A DNA stretch of 64,000 bases, from the NCBI GenBank assembly GCA_900466945.1, contig UBNV01000001.1, positions 124,001 to 188,000 of the forward strand. Reading direction: 5' to 3'. A program made the position numbers and the translations under genes. The DNA is from Hyphomicrobiales bacterium (lineage in GTDB: Bacteria > Pseudomonadota > Alphaproteobacteria > Rhizobiales > Rhizobiaceae). The notes under the pieces are model-generated. The model worked only from the letters and a program-made list of their open reading frames with translations, made no database searches and was not told the DNA's origin. Of this stretch, positions 49,356-55,723 are shown piece after piece. Position 1 is the first letter of the stretch. The number at the start of each line of letters is the position of its first letter.

Positions 49356-49766
49356 CTAATCCGCCGACCAATCCGGCTCGCCACGCAGATCATCGAGCGC
49401 GCGGCGCTCCTTCTTCGTCGGCCTGCCTGCTCCGGGAGCCCGAACACCGGGCTCGGATGGGCTGAAGGGCTTCTTCTCGGCCGGCGGCGTGAGATCCTTG
49501 TAGAGAAGCTTTGCTTCCTCGTAAGGGCCGCGCCTCTCGCCAGGCAGCTTGACGACGAGAACGAGATCGCGCTCGGGCATGGATATCTCCAGCTTGTCAC
49601 CAGGCTTGACCTGATGGCTCACCTGGCGAACCTTCTGCCCGTTGACACTGACATGACCGGCCGCCACGCGCTCTTGCGCGAGGCTGCGTGATTTTGCCAC
49701 ACGGGCGAAGAACAACCACTTGTCGATGCGCTGGCGCGAACCGCTTGGTGACTGCCTCTCGTCCAT
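49356..49766 (-). CDS. S4 domain RNA-binding protein (Hsp15-like)
   Basis: A 136-residue protein with an S4 domain: RIDKWLFFARVAKSRSLAQERV, GHVSVNGQKVRQVSHQVKPGDKLEI (about 13-60), then a basic, Pro-rich tail. It resembles Hsp15, which binds stalled 50S subunits with nascent tRNA. The start codon overlaps the helicase stop by one base (TAATG), so translation is coupled. Confidence 0.92.
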   Translation of the reverse strand: MDERQSPSGSRQRIDKWLFFARVAKSRSLAQERVAAGHVSVNGQKVRQVSHQVKPGDKLEISMPERDLVLVVKLPGERRGPYEEAKLLYKDLTPPAEKKPFSPSEPGVRAPGAGRPTKKERRALDDLRGEPDWSAD

Positions 49767-52700
49767 TATTTCTTCAGCTGCTCCTTGAGAGCCGCGAGCT
49801 TGGCGAACGGCGAATCCGGATCAATGGGCTTTTCCTTACGAGGCGGCTTTGCCTCGAAGCGTGCCGGCTGCGACTTGTTGTTGTCGCGTTCCGGCCGAGG
49901 ACCGCGGTCCTTGCGGTCACCACGATCCTGGCGATCACCCTTACCGGCAAACTTGCCCCGATTGTCGTCTCGACGCTCACCGCGATTGTCGGAACGGCGA
50001 TCGTCACGACGGCCTTCGCCGCGCTTCTCGCCAGCAGCCTCGCCGCCTTCGCGTGGCGCCGGGTTGCGCTGGCCCTGCGGACGGCGATCGCCACCCGGAC
50101 GACCGGTGCCACGCTGGTTGTCGCTGCGACCACCCGGACGCCAAAGAAGAACGGGCTTCGGCTCGACCGGCTCGGCCGACTGCTCTTCGGTAGCGGCAGG
50201 CTCAGCCGCTTCAGCGGCAACCGCTACAGCAGGCTCTTCGGTCACAGCAGCTGGTGCCTCGCCTTCGGCGGACGCCTCGGCGGATTGATCGGCATCATCG
50301 ACAGCGTCGTCGCTCTTGTCGGCAACCGCCGGAGCCTCAGCCGCGGCGGAACCGGCCTGGGCGCCGAGGAAGGCCGCGGCCTCTTCAGCAGAGACGCTGT
50401 CTGCGCGATAGCCGAGACCCTTCAGGATCTCCTCCATGTCGTCAGGTGTAGCACCCAGAATGGAAAGCATCGCGGTCGTCGTTGTGAATCGGCGGCCGTC
50501 ATAGGCGCCGTCAGGACGTGCAGGCGAACCGGGCTTCCACTGCAAAAGTGGACGAATGAGATCCGCGAGACGCTCGAGGATATCGATGCGCACGGCGCGC
50601 TTGCCGAGGAAGCGGAAGCCGGCGAGCTTGTAGAACATGCGCTCGAAGCTCGGATCGGTGACGACAGACGTACGGCCAGCGGCCAGCACTGGAATGAGGT
50701 CACCATAACCCGCCTTGTCGAGACCGTCATTCTTCAACGCCCAGAGCAGCGTGATCAGCTCGGCCGGAGCCGGCTTCAACAGGGCGGGCATGAAGATGTG
50801 GTAGGCGCCGAAGCGCACGCCATACCGACGCATCGAGGCGCGACCATCCTGGTCGAGTGTCTTGACGTCATCGGCCACGTCGCGACGGAAGAGCACGCCG
50901 AGATTTTCGACGAGCTGGAAGGCGAGGCCCTTGGCCAGGCCCTGCAGGTCCTCGGCGCGCGAGAGGTCGTCGAGCGGCTTCAGCACGGTAGAAATATGGT
51001 GATTGACGAAGCGCTCGATGCGGGCGGCGACGTGGTCGCGCGCAATACCGGTCAGCTGTTCGTCGGCCAACAGGATCACACGCGGATGCAGGATGTGGTC
51101 CGTGCCGATGAGGCGCGCCACCGGATCGCCCAGCCAACGCACGAGACCGTCGGACCCGATGGCGAGATCGTTGTTGCCGGACGCATGAAGCCGCGCGGCG
51201 CGCGCTTCGAATTCCAGCGCCAGCGCCTTGTAGGCGGCAGCCTGGACAGCCTTGGCATCCGAACCTTCCATGCCGGAAATCGGCGTGAACCGGAAACCGG
51301 AGAGTTGTCCCATGGCATGGCCTTCCACGAAGACATCGCCGTTCACACTGATTTCAGCTTCCAACATCGCATTCTCTCTCAAGCGCTTCATGAGCACAGA
51401 TGTCCTGCGATCAACAAAGCGTTTCGTCAACCGTTCATGTAACGCATCGGACAATCGGTCTTCGATTTCCCGCGTCTTTTCTTGCCAGTGTGTCGGATCG
51501 GCAAGCCAGCCGGGCCGGTTCGACACATAGGTCCACGTCCTGATCTGGGCGATCCGCGCCGACAGCGTATCGATCTCGCCATCTGTCCGATCTGCCCGGC
51601 GCACCTGTTCACCGAGGAAATCCTCGTTCACGGTGCCCCGCCTGACCAGATCAAAGTACAGGCTCTGAATCAGATCCGCATGCTGTGCAGGCGTAATGCG
51701 CCGATAGTCGGGCAGCGCGCAGGCCTCCCAGAGTTTTTCGACGCGATCGGGCCGGTCCGTGATGTCGGATATCTCGGGATAGCGCGACAAATATTCCAAT
51801 GCCTGCTGGTCTGTCGCCGGCAGGGCGCGGGTCAGTCCTTCGACGCGAGGCACCGCATCGAGACTCCGCTGCAGGCCGGCAATCGACGAAAAATCGAATC
51901 TTTCCGTCCGCCACTGCAAAACCTTGACCTGATCGAACTGATGCGTCTCCAGCCGCTCTACCAGTTCATCGTCGAACGGATCGACGCGACCCGTCACGCC
52001 GAACGTGCCGTCCTTGATGTGGCGGCCCGCACGACCTGCGATCTGCCCGAGCTCGCCGGGATTGAGGTTGCGGAACTGATAGCCGTCGAATTTGCGATCC
52101 TGGGCGAAGGCGACGTGATCGACATCGAGGTTGAGGCCCATGCCGATCGCGTCGGTCGCGACGAGATATTCGACGTCGCCTTCCTGATAGAGCCCGACCT
52201 GCGCATTGCGGGTCCGCGGGCTGAGCGCTCCGAGAACCACGGCCGCACCGCCGCGCTGGCGGCGGATCAGTTCGGCAATCGCATAGACTTCGTCGGCGGA
52301 GAAGGCGACGATGGCAGTCCGTTGCGGCAGCCGGGTAATCTTCTTCTGGCCGGCGTAGAAGAGCTGGGAGAGGCGCGGCCGCTCCACGATGGTGATTCCC
52401 GGCAACAGCTGGATCAGGATCGACTTCATCGTCGCCGAGCCGAGCAGCAGCGTTTCCTCACGGCCCCTCAGATGCAGCAGGCGATCGGTGAAGATGTGGC
52501 CACGCTCGAGATCGCCGGCCAGCTGGATTTCATCGATCGCGACGAAAGCAACCTTCGTCTCACGCGGCATGGCCTCGACGGTACAGACGGAGAAGCGGGC
52601 GTTCGGTGGGCTGATTTTCTCTTCGCCTGTGACCAGGGCGACGTTTTGCGCGCCGACGCGCTCGACAACGCGCGTGTAGACCTCGCGGGCAAGCAGTCTC

Positions 52701-52816
52701 AGCGGCAATCCGATGATGCCGGACCCGTGCGCGACCATGCGTTCGATCGCAAAATGGGTCTTGCCGGTATTGGTTGGCCCCAGCACAGCACTCACGCCGC
52801 GGCCACTCAGGATCAT
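49766..52816 (-). CDS. Suv3-type DEAD/DExH RNA helicase with disordered basic tail
   Basis: A superfamily 2 helicase of about 1016 residues. Walker A GPTNTGKT is at 13-20 and the box II variant DEIQ at 95-98, the signature of SUPV3L1/Suv3, the mitochondrial degradosome helicase; LLLGSATM (box III) and QIAGRAGRH (box VI) follow. The middle has the Suv3-type helical region. From about 790 the chain becomes Ala/Glu-rich and then an Arg/Gly/Asp-rich disordered tail (about 880-1000), ending DPDSPFAKLAALKEQLKK. Likely an RNA-processing role. The ATG at 52816 is chosen; a TTG at 52930 would add 38 residues. Coupled to the S4 gene. Confidence 0.9.
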   Translation of the reverse strand: MILSGRGVSAVLGPTNTGKTHFAIERMVAHGSGIIGLPLRLLAREVYTRVVERVGAQNVALVTGEEKISPPNARFSVCTVEAMPRETKVAFVAIDEIQLAGDLERGHIFTDRLLHLRGREETLLLGSATMKSILIQLLPGITIVERPRLSQLFYAGQKKITRLPQRTAIVAFSADEVYAIAELIRRQRGGAAVVLGALSPRTRNAQVGLYQEGDVEYLVATDAIGMGLNLDVDHVAFAQDRKFDGYQFRNLNPGELGQIAGRAGRHIKDGTFGVTGRVDPFDDELVERLETHQFDQVKVLQWRTERFDFSSIAGLQRSLDAVPRVEGLTRALPATDQQALEYLSRYPEISDITDRPDRVEKLWEACALPDYRRITPAQHADLIQSLYFDLVRRGTVNEDFLGEQVRRADRTDGEIDTLSARIAQIRTWTYVSNRPGWLADPTHWQEKTREIEDRLSDALHERLTKRFVDRRTSVLMKRLRENAMLEAEISVNGDVFVEGHAMGQLSGFRFTPISGMEGSDAKAVQAAAYKALALEFEARAARLHASGNNDLAIGSDGLVRWLGDPVARLIGTDHILHPRVILLADEQLTGIARDHVAARIERFVNHHISTVLKPLDDLSRAEDLQGLAKGLAFQLVENLGVLFRRDVADDVKTLDQDGRASMRRYGVRFGAYHIFMPALLKPAPAELITLLWALKNDGLDKAGYGDLIPVLAAGRTSVVTDPSFERMFYKLAGFRFLGKRAVRIDILERLADLIRPLLQWKPGSPARPDGAYDGRRFTTTTAMLSILGATPDDMEEILKGLGYRADSVSAEEAAAFLGAQAGSAAAEAPAVADKSDDAVDDADQSAEASAEGEAPAAVTEEPAVAVAAEAAEPAATEEQSAEPVEPKPVLLWRPGGRSDNQRGTGRPGGDRRPQGQRNPAPREGGEAAGEKRGEGRRDDRRSDNRGERRDDNRGKFAGKGDRQDRGDRKDRGPRPERDNNKSQPARFEAKPPRKEKPIDPDSPFAKLAALKEQLKK

Positions 52817-53191
52817 GGGTTGCGTATTCAAAGACCGCTCCGCTTGTCGGGACCGCGCGTCGTCCGCTTTCCGGCGCCCTTGGCCAACAGATGGAGACGA
52901 ACGGGGGCAAAGGCAAGCCGCTTGTCGCAATCACCCCAGAAATACGCACAAACCCTTGATCAGAATCAGTTTTTGGATTCGGGAACACTCTGGGAACGAA
53001 TCAGCGACGAATCGACGACTCTTCCGGATTCAGGCTTTGTTCACGGCTACATGTCGATGAATCATGTTCTTCTACCTACCATATCCTGAATCGGCAGATC
53101 CACTTAATTGACGCCCAAGCGGCCAGAACAGCCATTGGATCGATGGAACATTCGTCGGGCGGCATACGTTGCTTCGGCCGAGGTGCCCGCC
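52817..53191. promoter_or_regulatory. divergent regulatory region with a GANTC cluster
   Basis: This 375-bp gap between helicase and hydrolase has eight GANTC sites in 130 bp (first bases 52963, 52976, 52998, 53009, 53017, 53027, 53059, 53088), against about 0.5 expected by chance. GANTC is the target of the cell-cycle methyltransferase CcrM in alphaproteobacteria; methylation and GcrA act on such promoters. It must contain the helicase and hydrolase promoters. Part of it (52993-53052) recurs at 54739-54798. Confidence 0.6.
52993..53052 (+). repeat. non-coding direct repeat, copy 1
   Basis: About 60 bp that match copy 2 in the same orientation. The first 22 bp (GGAACGAATC..CGACGAATCG) agree at 20 positions; TTTGTTCAC-GCTA-AT at +43 agrees at 15 of 17. 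The middle differs by small gaps but keeps TCTTCC. Both copies bear two GAATC sites 11 bp apart. Confidence 0.6.
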
Positions 53192-54208
53192 ATGACGCTT
53201 AAATCTCCACCACCGGACTGGATTGGAACGACGGATGCCGGACAGGACTTTGTTCTGATCCACGGCATGGTCATGGCTCCTTCCTTCTGGCAGGCATACG
53301 CGCCGGAAATTGTCCGTCATGGGCGTTCGGCGGCTTATCCGCTCCCCGGACACCACCCGTGGATGCTCGATGCACCGGGTCAGCTTATCACGCCCCGAGA
53401 AGTGGCAGATGCCTATGCGGCAGCGATCCGTCGCGACTTTGGCGGCCGTCCCGTCAACCTGATCGGACACTCGACCGGCGGCTTTGTCTCCCTGCTTTTT
53501 GCGCTCCACTATCCGGAATTGGTAAGATCGATCACGCTGATCGGTGCCTTCGCCTGCGGACGGTTCGAAGGACAGGAGCGGCTGCCCGCGCGACTGCTGC
53601 GGGTACCGCGCGTCGGCGCATTCCTGTTCACCCAGTTCTTCAGACGATGGATTGCGACTCAGGAGCAGTTCCGCTGGGGATCGATCGAATGCGTGTATGA
53701 CAAGGGGTGCCCGTGGCAGGACGACCGCGCGGTCGAGGCCCTGGAAGAAGTGCGCCTCGACCTGTTGCGCGCGCGTCCGGAAGACATTGCCGCCTGCATC
53801 CGCTTCATGTCCGCAACAACGCTGGTCAAGGATCTGCCGCGCATCAAGGCTCCAGTGATGAACCTCGTCGGCGCCAATGACGCGATCGTGCCGCCTGCCC
53901 ATCAGCTTCGCGTTTCGAAATTACTGCCGCAGGCACAGACCGTGATCCTGCGCAATTGCGGCCACCTTCCTATGGTCGAGCATCAAGCCCGCACCGATCA
54001 GGCGATCTCCGCGTTTCTCTATGGTCTCTCAATGACGCCCGTCTCGTCGGCCCCGATCACACGTGTCGCGCGGCGCACCTCGGCTGTTGCCGGCCTGCAT
54101 CGGCTGCTCGGCGGCCTGGCATCGCCGATGGAACAAACGTCCAGCCATCGCGTTCAACCGGCACAAGACTGGAATTTCCACCACGGCTTAGGAGAGGGCC
54201 CCCAATGA
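53192..54208 (+). CDS. alpha/beta hydrolase
   Basis: A 338-residue alpha/beta-hydrolase fold enzyme. FVLIHGMVMAPSFWQ is the oxyanion-hole HG region; the nucleophile Ser lies in IGHSTGGFVSLLF, the acid in VGANDAIVPP and the His in RNCGHLPMVEHQ. A C-terminal tail of about 50 residues (after SAFLYGLSM) is unstructured and not typical of the family. Substrate unknown. The ATG at 53192 is chosen; 28 codons upstream lack homology. It overlaps the DUF3309 gene by 4 bp (ATGA). Confidence 0.87.
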   Translation: MTLKSPPPDWIGTTDAGQDFVLIHGMVMAPSFWQAYAPEIVRHGRSAAYPLPGHHPWMLDAPGQLITPREVADAYAAAIRRDFGGRPVNLIGHSTGGFVSLLFALHYPELVRSITLIGAFACGRFEGQERLPARLLRVPRVGAFLFTQFFRRWIATQEQFRWGSIECVYDKGCPWQDDRAVEALEEVRLDLLRARPEDIAACIRFMSATTLVKDLPRIKAPVMNLVGANDAIVPPAHQLRVSKLLPQAQTVILRNCGHLPMVEHQARTDQAISAFLYGLSMTPVSSAPITRVARRTSAVAGLHRLLGGLASPMEQTSSHRVQPAQDWNFHHGLGEGPQ

Positions 54209-54357
54209 GTACCATTCTCATCGTCATTCTAATTCTGCTGCTGATCGGCGCACTGCCGAACTGGGGTCATAGCCGCAGCTGGGGCTACGGCCCGTCGGGA
54301 GGCTTGGGCCTCGTACTTCTCATCCTCATCATCCTGATGTTGATGGGCCGCATTTGA
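54205..54357 (+). CDS. DUF3309 family small membrane protein
   Basis: A 50-residue protein with two hydrophobic helices (residues 3-17 and 33-48) around NWGHSRSWGYGPSGGLG, the DUF3309 core. Function unknown; widespread in Rhizobiales. Its ATG overlaps the hydrolase stop, so the two are coupled. Confidence 0.88.
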   Translation: MSTILIVILILLLIGALPNWGHSRSWGYGPSGGLGLVLLILIILMLMGRI

Positions 54358-54399
54358 CCTGAAGTGAAAATCTAACTCGACGTGAAAAGGTATAAGACG

Positions 54400-54657
54400 A
54401 TGATGAAAAAGACCCTTCTGGCAATCGCATTGATCGCTCCGCTCGCATCCTGCACGGCCACCGAACGTGGCGCCGGTATCGGTGCCGCCTCCGGTGCAGT
54501 CATCGGTGGTGTTGCTACCGGCAATGTCCGCGGCGCAGCCGTCGGTGCAGCAGTCGGCGGCGTCGCTGGCGCACTGATCGGCAACTCGCAGGAACGTTCC
54601 GGCTACTGCGTTTACCGCGATCGCTACGGCCGCACCTACGAAGCACGCTGCCGCTAA
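54400..54657 (+). CDS. glycine-zipper lipoprotein
   Basis: An 85-residue lipoprotein. The signal peptide ends in the lipobox PLASC (Cys18). Glycine-zipper repeats follow (GAGIGAASGAVIGGV, GAAVGAAVGGVAGALIG), and a C-terminal pair of cysteines lies in GYCVYRDRYGRTYEARC. Glycine-zipper lipoproteins insert into or stiffen the outer membrane. It lies 42 bp after DUF3309 and ends with a strong terminator. ATG at 54400 or 54403. Confidence 0.87.
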   Translation: MMKKTLLAIALIAPLASCTATERGAGIGAASGAVIGGVATGNVRGAAVGAAVGGVAGALIGNSQERSGYCVYRDRYGRTYEARCR

Positions 54658-54670
54658 TAGGCATTTCTGC

Positions 54671-54707
54671 AAAAAAAGCCGCCGAACCCCGGGTTCGGCG
54701 GCTTTTT
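54671..54707 (+). terminator. terminator of the glycine-zipper gene
   Basis: Stem GCCGCCGAACC (54678-54688) with GGTTCGGCGGC (54692-54702), then five T; a run of seven A on the left makes it bidirectional. It begins 13 bp past the stop. Confidence 0.93.
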
Positions 54708-54997
54708 CGTGCGCTGAATTAACTTCTCGATCAAATCCGGAACGAATCGACGACGAATCGCGGACTGAGCAGTCTTCCCGGTTTGTTCACCGCTAGATAT
54801 TGTTGAATAACAATTGGTTAACCATAGAGCGCGGTGGATATTAAGAATTTCCCAGCAGAAAAAGACGGTAATTCTTAACGGCCTAGCCGATCTTCCATCA
54901 GAGATCTTAAACGCTACGCAGTGTCGAAATCCTTCCCGCCCTAGAAACGCAAGAGGCTGGCACTAGGCCGGCCCCGATGCGAAGCACTGACGGTTGC
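54708..54997. other. non-coding region between the glycine-zipper terminator and phbB
   Basis: No gene found; with the terminator the gap is 340 bp. It carries copy 2 of the 60-bp repeat (54739-54798), the CtrA half-site-like TTAACCAT within a GGTTAACC palindrome (about 54797-54805), and a perfect 9-bp inverted repeat TTAAGAATT (54841-54849)/AATTCTTAA (54870-54878) with 20-bp spacer. It is more AT-rich than its neighbours. A small RNA gene or binding region is possible. Confidence 0.5.
54739..54798 (+). repeat. non-coding direct repeat, copy 2
   Basis: Same-orientation copy of 52993-53052, starting GGAACGAATCGACGACGAAT and continuing to TTTGTTCACCGCTAGAT at the same +43 offset as in copy 1. 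The two copies bracket the hydrolase-DUF3309-glycine-zipper cassette, 1.75 kb apart. Confidence 0.6.
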
Positions 54998-55723
54998 TCA
55001 GACGAAGAACTGGCCACCGTTTGCTGAAATCGTCGATCCCGTAATGAAACCGGCCTCATCCGATGCGAGGAAGACGACGCAGCGGGCGATTTCTTCCGGT
55101 TCGCCAAGCCTGCCGACCGGGATCTGTGGGATGATGCGCTCGTTGAGCACCTTCTCAGGGATCGCGCGCACCATTTCCGTGCCGATATAACCGGGGCAAA
55201 TGGCATTGACTGTGATGCCCTTGGCAGCGCCTTCCTGCGCCAGCGCCTTGGTGAAGCCGAGGTCACCCGCCTTGGCGGCAGAGTAGTTGGCCTGACCCAT
55301 CTGACCCTTCTGGCCATTGATCGACGAAATGTTAATCACGCGCCCAAAACTACGGTCGCGCATGCCGGTCCAGACCGGATGGGTCATGTTGAAGAGGCCG
55401 GTGAGATTGGTGTTGATGACCTCGTTCCACTGGTCCGGCTTCATCTTGTGGAACATGGCGTCCCGCGTGATGCCGGCATTGTTGACCAGCACTTCGACCG
55501 GGCCGAGGGCAGCCTCGACGGCGGCGATCCCGTCAACGCAAGCCTGATAGTTGGAGACATCCCATTTGAAGACCGGAATGCCGGTCTCCGCCTCGAAAGC
55601 CTTTGCCTTTTCCTCGTTTCCGGCGAAGTTTGCTGCCACCGTGTAGCCGGAATTCTTCAGAGCGATCGAAATCGCAGCGCCAATGCCGCGCGTACCGCCG
55701 GTTACCAAAGCCACTCTGCTCAT
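54998..55723 (-). CDS. phbB: acetoacetyl-CoA reductase
   Basis: NADPH-dependent reductase that makes (R)-3-hydroxybutyryl-CoA for polyhydroxybutyrate. A 241-residue SDR: TGGTRGIGAAISIALKNSG, NNAGITRDAMFHKM, Ser in NISSINGQKGQMGQ and YSAAKAG. The QKGQxGQxNYSAAKAG stretch is specific for PhaB/PhbB. It lies 150 bp after phbA in the same direction; a hairpin TCCCGG/CCGGGA (55805-55823) and a duplicated GGTTCCCGTC (55750, 55775) lie in that gap. Confidence 0.96.
   Translation of the reverse strand: MSRVALVTGGTRGIGAAISIALKNSGYTVAANFAGNEEKAKAFEAETGIPVFKWDVSNYQACVDGIAAVEAALGPVEVLVNNAGITRDAMFHKMKPDQWNEVINTNLTGLFNMTHPVWTGMRDRSFGRVINISSINGQKGQMGQANYSAAKAGDLGFTKALAQEGAAKGITVNAICPGYIGTEMVRAIPEKVLNERIIPQIPVGRLGEPEEIARCVVFLASDEAGFITGSTISANGGQFFV

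Follow-up and report, generated by a model that had tools for sequence, protein, structure and literature searches.

A conserved composite element of GANTC, LexA-like, and NrdR-type sites upstream of a Suv3/MgpS-type helicase gene

Introduction

Why are eight GANTC sites, the target of CcrM methylation, crowded into 130 bp of DNA just upstream of a helicase gene? The locus lies in a 64,000-nucleotide stretch of a Rhizobiaceae genome (the window, to which all coordinates refer), and the original prediction had read it as a promoter under CcrM/GcrA cell-cycle control or a replication-linked site, flanked by a helicase operon and a hydrolase cassette. According to passages of a study of Ensifer, intergenic DNA has about double the GANTC frequency of coding DNA, and GANTC alone is not diagnostic of CcrM control there (PMC8725594). 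Our comparisons of related sequences indicate that a noncoding element of about 110 bp underlies the cluster.

Results

The cluster and the gene that it precedes are as follows.

49766–52816, minus strand: Suv3/MgpS-type DEXQ helicase, at the head of the block helicase-S4-fdxA-carD (open reading frame list, domain matches)
52963–53092, no strand: cluster of eight GANTC sites (site count and rank in the genome sample)

A recount confirmed the eight sites, at 52963, 52976, 52998, 53009, 53017, 53027, 53059, and 53088. GANTC is avoided overall in the window, which holds 88 sites against a mean of 377 in dinucleotide shuffles, about four-fold fewer. In a sample of the same genome (391,186 bp, made up of the window and 20 further stretches, 7.8% of 5.04 Mb), GANTC occurs at 1.20 per kb, so that 0.16 sites are expected per 130 bp rather than the roughly 0.5 first estimated. 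The best nonoverlapping 130-bp intervals of this sample comprise one with eight sites (the cluster), nine with three, 47 with two, and 336 with one; outside the cluster, the maximum is thus three. The Poisson probability of at least eight sites is about 8e-12 per interval, or 2e-9 if the intergenic density is doubled. The cluster is a strong outlier, and equal clusters are absent from the rest of the sampled 391 kb.

Helicase homology in relatives begins at the ATG at 52816 (minus strand), and the hydrolase on the other side starts at 53108 or 53192 (plus strand); we therefore take the stretch with the cluster as intergenic. Longer mechanical reading frames that cross it have no support. The neighbors are those expected, a Suv3-type DEXQ helicase and an S4 protein on one side and an alpha/beta hydrolase on the other. 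We presume that the small S4 protein, the second gene of the helicase block, is perhaps like heat-shock protein 15. The Sinorhizobium meliloti gene SMc03877 (mgpS), called an RNA helicase in the part of the literature consulted (PMC4941405), is taken as the putative counterpart of the window helicase.

Homology searches located the helicase in 79 of 80 genomes (counting the source genome) and in 80 named loci. These collections overlap, as L001 and L002 are the source genome and some of L001–L031 and L145–L164 are identical to named loci. At least three of four GANTC sites recur upstream of the helicase at a fixed spacing of 10-8-11 bp in 95 of 111 loci; the remaining 16 comprise four without GANTC within 600 bp, three with one or two sites, and nine with four or more. 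In 91 distinct segments chosen for at least three of the four sites at this spacing, a choice that biases percentages upward, the GANTC bases of GAGTC, YGATTCG, and YGATTCG are 96–100% conserved. Across 26 loci, not all independent, the ungapped pairwise identity is 0.61–0.90 inside the element and 0.26–0.41 around it, and conservation ends sharply at the element borders. These comparisons of the homologous gap indicate that the cluster belongs to DNA under selection.

The conserved object carries more than GANTC sites. Its copy nearest to the helicase contains the following features.

52983–53090, minus strand: near copy of the composite element, oriented toward the helicase (fixed spacing; match to model R1 at 52982–53049, E 4e-18)
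53075–53090, minus strand: NrdR-type box A, the weaker box, 31 bp from box B and overlapping the GANTC at 53088 (55 of 74 near copies match 5–6 of 6 skeleton positions at offset -46)
53044–53059, minus strand: NrdR-type box B, skeleton C.A.AT.T.G (53 of 74 near copies match exactly at offset -15)
53028–53042, minus strand: left LexA-like arm GAAC-N7-GAAT, one mismatch to GAAC-N7-GAAC, overlapping the GANTC at 53027 (motif from passages of PMC7987155 and PMC3323433)
53008–53014, minus strand: Y-GATTC-G site 1, the GcrA-preferred form of a CcrM site (passages of PMC7987155)
52997–53003, minus strand: Y-GATTC-G site 2, 11 bp from site 1 (sequence, near-copy comparison)
52983–52997, minus strand: right arm, a full LexA/SOS box GTTC-N7-GTTC (70 of 74 near copies)

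Read toward the helicase, the order is box A, box B, GAAC-N7-GAA(T/A/C), two Y-GATTC-G sites 11 bp apart, and GTTC-N7-GTTC, so that the two Y-GATTC-G sites sit between inverted LexA-like arms. Motif counts in what follows refer to 157 units (74 near copies, assigned by position, and 83 others) picked by a consensus score of at least 26 of 39, and are conditional on that choice.

Of the 74 near copies, 55 have box A at a distance of 31 bp from box B, compared with only 10 of 83 other copies, and at any other offset the NrdR skeleton occurs in at most 7 of 74 near copies. NrdR has a known consensus, and its two boxes lie about three helical turns apart. The upstream region of the genome's own nrdJ gene carries the same C.A.AT.T.G skeleton with a 5-of-6 partner 31 bp away. 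The element itself is not at a reductase gene, the only PF02867 match of the genome being on contig C17. In the organism studied in PMC4409342, passages of which were consulted, each reductase promoter has two NrdR boxes. As a separate observation, the nrdJ upstream region (L142) has, besides the 31-bp pair, a third box, CAAGATATAG, near an exact DnaA-box sequence, TTATCCACA.

The consulted passages of PMC7987155 and PMC3323433 give GTTC-N7-GTTC as the LexA motif of Alphaproteobacteria, and the genome's own lexA carries a site of this type, GTTCCATTTGTGTTC, just before its start. The full motif is present in 70 of 74 near copies and in 8 of 83 others, and is thus mainly a near-copy feature. 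For GcrA activation, the extended motif quoted is YGAKTCG (PMC7987155, in part). A pair of YGAKTCK sites is carried by 67 of the 74 near copies and 63 of the 83 others, the units having been selected on a consensus that contains them; with the same caveat, all 157 units have at least one Y-GA(G/T)TC-(G/T) and 130 have two, and such sites are also found in distant genomes. Across the 91 near segments chosen by spacing, sites 1 and 2 are 97–100% conserved per base and their flanking Y is always a C or T, and site 2 is weaker in the other copies (84–100%). Binding of NrdR, LexA, and GcrA to the element is predicted throughout from such site likenesses.

Model R1, built from sequence only (69 positions, 34 of 40 alignment rows), matched two places in the source genome at E ≤ 10, 52982–53049 and 54732–54794, both in the window, with 150 of 1764 first-look candidates scored. 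The second match marks a far copy, listed here with a neighboring inverted repeat.

54729–54836, minus strand: second (far) copy of the element (model R1 match, consensus, alignment)
54729–54743, minus strand: its right arm, GTTC-N7-GATC (sequence)
54743–54749 and 54754–54760, minus strand: its Y-GATTC-G sites (sequence)
54774–54788, minus strand: its left arm (sequence)
about 54790–54805, minus strand: its NrdR-type box (skeleton scan)
54818–54825, minus strand: TTAACCAT (sequence)
54671–54708, no strand: terminator-like inverted repeat with A and T runs at both sides, where the Gly-zipper gene ends, with the far copy about 20 bp away (read by eye)

Flanked by the 3′ ends of the Gly-zipper gene and of phbB, the far copy is close to the terminator-like hairpin. 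It is as well conserved as the near copy, with ungapped pairwise identities of 0.71–0.92 inside and 0.29–0.55 around it in the same 26 loci, not all independent, and a promoter reading leaves this unexplained. Between the two copies (53108–54657) lie the hydrolase, a 50-residue frame, and the Gly-zipper protein. This stretch varies among relatives, since the distance from first to last copy is about 1.7 kb in 16 of the 26 loci and about 0.9–1.2 kb in the other 10.

Of 81 sources, 77 yielded a total of 157 element units. A locus has one to four of them, every unit points to the helicase, and units in tandem are often 200–290 bp apart. Sinorhizobium meliloti 4H41 (L072) is among the strains with a near copy. 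In genome G030, a contig of its own carries the far copy, again with the Gly-zipper gene and phbB on its two sides. In G035 (L226), a third copy, the far one, has stayed beside the phbB 3′ end through a rearrangement and is now about 10 kb from the helicase. A true exception to the single-locus rule is the array in G073, where three units 250–300 bp apart, matching 25–30 of 39 consensus positions, lie on a contig other than that of the helicase (L225 5637–6188, contig C3), with neither helicase nor phb genes in the 11.5 kb around. Three weak matches (G142:C4, G036:C12, and G010:C3) contain no unit by consensus and look like chance. The matches examined away from the helicase were those in these six genomes; additional matches above E 0.03 occur in G023, G028, G051, G071, G078, and others.

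Two further motifs are enriched in 134 nonredundant units. TTAACCAT, which we take to be a CtrA half site, occurs 31 times against 0.7 in shuffles, 20 times at one fixed offset, and the fixed-offset form is present in many far copies. DnaA-box-like sites number 25 against 4.5 in shuffles, at least 5 of the 25 being by-products of the NrdR box.

The helicase has a promoter-like sequence of its own.

52889–52917, minus strand: helicase promoter-like pair CTTGCC-N17-CCATCT (pattern in 96 of 111 loci)

The pattern CTT(G/T)(C/T)N-N17-N(C/T)ATNT, which resembles the rhizobial heat-shock sigma consensus, occurs at most 220 bp from the helicase start in 96 of 111 loci and in 0.5% of shuffles. The pair stands between the element and the helicase ATG, 66 bp nearer the gene than the element, and the LexA box of the window therefore does not overlap it. 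It is kept in five loci that lost the near copy (L021, L034, L057, L066, and L068) and absent in L078 and L106. Inside the element, no promoter hexamers were recognized, and inspection by eye in both directions for promoters of other sigma factors gave nothing convincing; a sigma-70 scan of 52700–53300 found no site. With its own promoter-like pair nearer the gene, the helicase would be acted on by the element from a position of about -100 to -210, which is not the usual placement of LexA or NrdR sites. The separate pair and the lack of hexamers together leave three options for the element: it works from a distance, it serves a different transcript, or it has no promoter role.

Beyond the close relatives, model R1 matched 19 of 289 genomes of the class at E ≤ 0.01, the source genome included, and in 15 of the 18 others the match is within 5 kb upstream of the same helicase. 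In L132, element and helicase are 4.7 kb apart, with several genes between them, one MerR-like and others metal-efflux-like by eye. In G133 (L131), the element is kept at about 6 kb from fdxA and carD, but the search of its single contig (1.73 Mb, 93% complete) detected no helicase. The short matches in G137 and G361 are chance-like. A position weight matrix scan of 40 further helicase upstream regions gave five hits at p < 0.01, four of them with convincing sequence, and no convincing element in the other 36; the 40 were chosen roughly by similarity from 98 other helicase-bearing genomes, leaving aside those covered above and G226, G236, and G241. Weaker forms of the element occur upstream of the same helicase in other orders. 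The element is thus distributed across several orders yet often absent. GcrA (PF07750) is encoded in 18 of the 19 genomes with a match, compared to 179 of 289 overall (P 0.001, uncorrected for kinship), and the one match genome without it is G137.

Across the class, the gene on the far side of the element is variously an acyl-CoA dehydrogenase, HAD-type, GST-like, monooxygenase-like, or mutase-like gene (named by eye). Control of the divergent gene by the element was rejected because that gene varies across the class. As the far-side gene changes while the helicase stays, the proposed tie to the hydrolase is not indicated.

Finally, we located the element relative to replication landmarks. The oriC of S. 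meliloti adjoins hemE. In nine of ten genomes with few contigs, the locus lies 51–233 kb from hemE, and the tenth (G014) gave no distance. The chromosomal origin itself was rejected as an identity of the element, given this separation from hemE and the presence of DnaA-box-like sites in a minority of copies.

Discussion

The CcrM promoter first proposed appears to be part of the answer only. In its favor, two of the eight sites have the Y-GATTC-G form and GcrA accompanies the element in nearly all genomes with a match. Against it, the sites at 52963, 52976, and 53059 are variable and that at 53088 is only about 70% conserved per base; the conserved object also includes LexA-like and NrdR-type sites and is duplicated within the window, and a conserved promoter-like pair that belongs to the helicase itself stands between element and ATG. 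The object as a whole is a composite of NrdR-type, LexA-type, and GcrA-type sites that goes with the mgpS helicase locus.

We favor, with a probability of roughly 45%, the reading that this element is a composite operator, with mgpS as its primary target, that would respond to dNTP state, DNA damage, and CcrM methylation. The tandem NrdR boxes would report the dNTP/ATP state, and DNA damage would be reported by the pair of LexA arms, of which the one facing the helicase is a full SOS box. The two Y-GATTC-G sites would report CcrM methylation, and hence passage of the replication fork, via GcrA. Between fork passage and remethylation, or at low dNTPs or DNA damage, occupancy of the element would change, and this change would presumably raise transcription in front of the helicase, the probable main target. 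Extra tandem copies would be amplified copies of the same binding platform, selected in their own right.

This operator reading is supported by the fixed spacing (95 of 111 loci), the sharp conservation, the association with the helicase (15 of 18 genomes), and the variable far-side gene. Further support comes from the NrdR-type 31-bp pair as at nrdJ, a full LexA box that is largely specific to near copies, the co-occurrence with GcrA (18 of 19), and the absence of compensatory change within the element. It is weakened by the separate helicase promoter-like pair and the lack of hexamers inside the element, by the far copy lying between 3′ ends in the window and G030 and the copy beside the phbB 3′ end in G035, by the element without helicase in G133 and the array elsewhere in G073, and by the 36 of 40 further genomes without a convincing element and the 16 of 111 loci that fail the spacing.

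Published GcrA and CcrM results fit a tie to repair genes, as far as the consulted passages extend. In Brucella abortus, GcrA peaks lie at lexA, uvrA, mutL, and ogt, with a GANTC enrichment of 4.4- to 4.7-fold, and lexA induction is independent of GcrA (PMC6813329). In Agrobacterium tumefaciens, CcrM depletion raises SOS-type genes (PMC11514494).

A possible alternative, one that we nevertheless hold to be doubtful, is a DNA-level replication-control or titration locus near the origin, independent of mgpS transcription, in the manner of the datA and DARS loci of Escherichia coli, binding-site loci that collect replication regulators. The tandem arrays of one to four copies in a single orientation would suit such a locus, as would the far copy that is as conserved as the near one though away from gene starts, the enrichment of TTAACCAT and DnaA-box-like sites over shuffles, and the distance to hemE in nine of ten genomes. 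The element kept without helicase in G133 and the array elsewhere in G073 point the same way; the G073 array makes the operator reading slightly weaker and both this alternative and the checkpoint-site reading described below slightly stronger. However, other orders have single copies upstream of the same helicase, with any other neighbor, near-origin gene blocks may stay near the origin regardless, and DnaA-box-like sites are found in a minority of copies.

It is unlikely, in our estimate, that the element is a widespread cis-acting replication-checkpoint site, mostly a near-origin tandem array that would act at the DNA level beyond a promoter role for mgpS. Its units would combine NrdR sensing of dNTPs, LexA sensing of damage, and CcrM/GcrA sensing of fork passage, with CtrA added in many far copies. 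If true, such a site would be an alphaproteobacterial counterpart of datA and DARS with inputs not known there.

The GANTC sites could instead be passengers of LexA or NrdR motifs, with CcrM methylation having no role, which we consider quite improbable. LexA boxes easily overlap GANTC (passages of PMC7987155), and here the site at 53027 overlaps an arm, that at 53088 overlaps box A, and three of the eight sites are variable. However, Y-GATTC-G sites 1 and 2 lie between the arms and have the near-invariant bases noted above for the selected near segments.

Even less probable is that each copy serves as promoter of a short noncoding RNA, which would make the array a family of small RNA genes. 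A transcript of a far copy could fold by pairing of its inverted arms, and in the window and some relatives a terminator-like hairpin follows closely on the far copy. Against this, one pair in that hairpin has a compensatory change and the element has none, the sequence beside the copies is poorly conserved (ungapped), and near copies break the pairing of the arms while keeping the DNA sites. No Rfam family reached its gathering score in 52500–53500 or 54500–55100; nine near-matches, all below gathering scores, fall on the terminator-like hairpin. A structured RNA element was likewise rejected, there being neither compensatory changes nor conserved transcript-like sequence, and inspection of the alignments by eye revealed no small conserved protein beside the copies. 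A chance cluster or functionless low-complexity DNA is contradicted by the rank, the Poisson estimate, and the conservation, with no point found in its favor, and can be set aside.

Comparison with Known Systems

Control by NrdR, LexA, and CcrM/GcrA is usually discussed regulon by regulon, and this element combines their sites in one fixed arrangement. Provided that these sites are bound, the element would be a single place that reads dNTP supply, damage, and fork passage together, in several orders, and the Suv3/MgpS helicase would gain a replication-stress context. A search of mostly open-access articles, excluding preprints, returned no description of such an element, and no target resembling it appeared in the NrdR literature searched.

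The putative composite operator that we favor resembles parts of several known systems. Like the GcrA/CcrM promoters of Caulobacterales, it has Y-GATTC-G in noncoding DNA upstream of a gene in a genome that encodes GcrA; unlike them, it has four GANTC sites at fixed spacing, interlocked with LexA-like and NrdR-type sites, lies at least 66 bp upstream of the helicase pair, and occurs in tandem copies, with binding that is putative. It shares with alphaproteobacterial SOS operators a full GTTC-N7-GTTC on the helicase side in 70 of 74 near copies, but has a second, inverted, imperfect arm, and the exact box recurs in 8 of 83 other copies. As in NrdR-controlled reductase promoters, two boxes stand 31 bp apart, an arrangement also seen at the genome's own nrdJ, although the reductase gene is on another contig. 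With datA and DARS, which it differs from in having DnaA-box-like sites in a minority of copies only, the element shares the form of a short intergenic cluster of regulator sites, a likeness that holds for the far copies away from gene starts.
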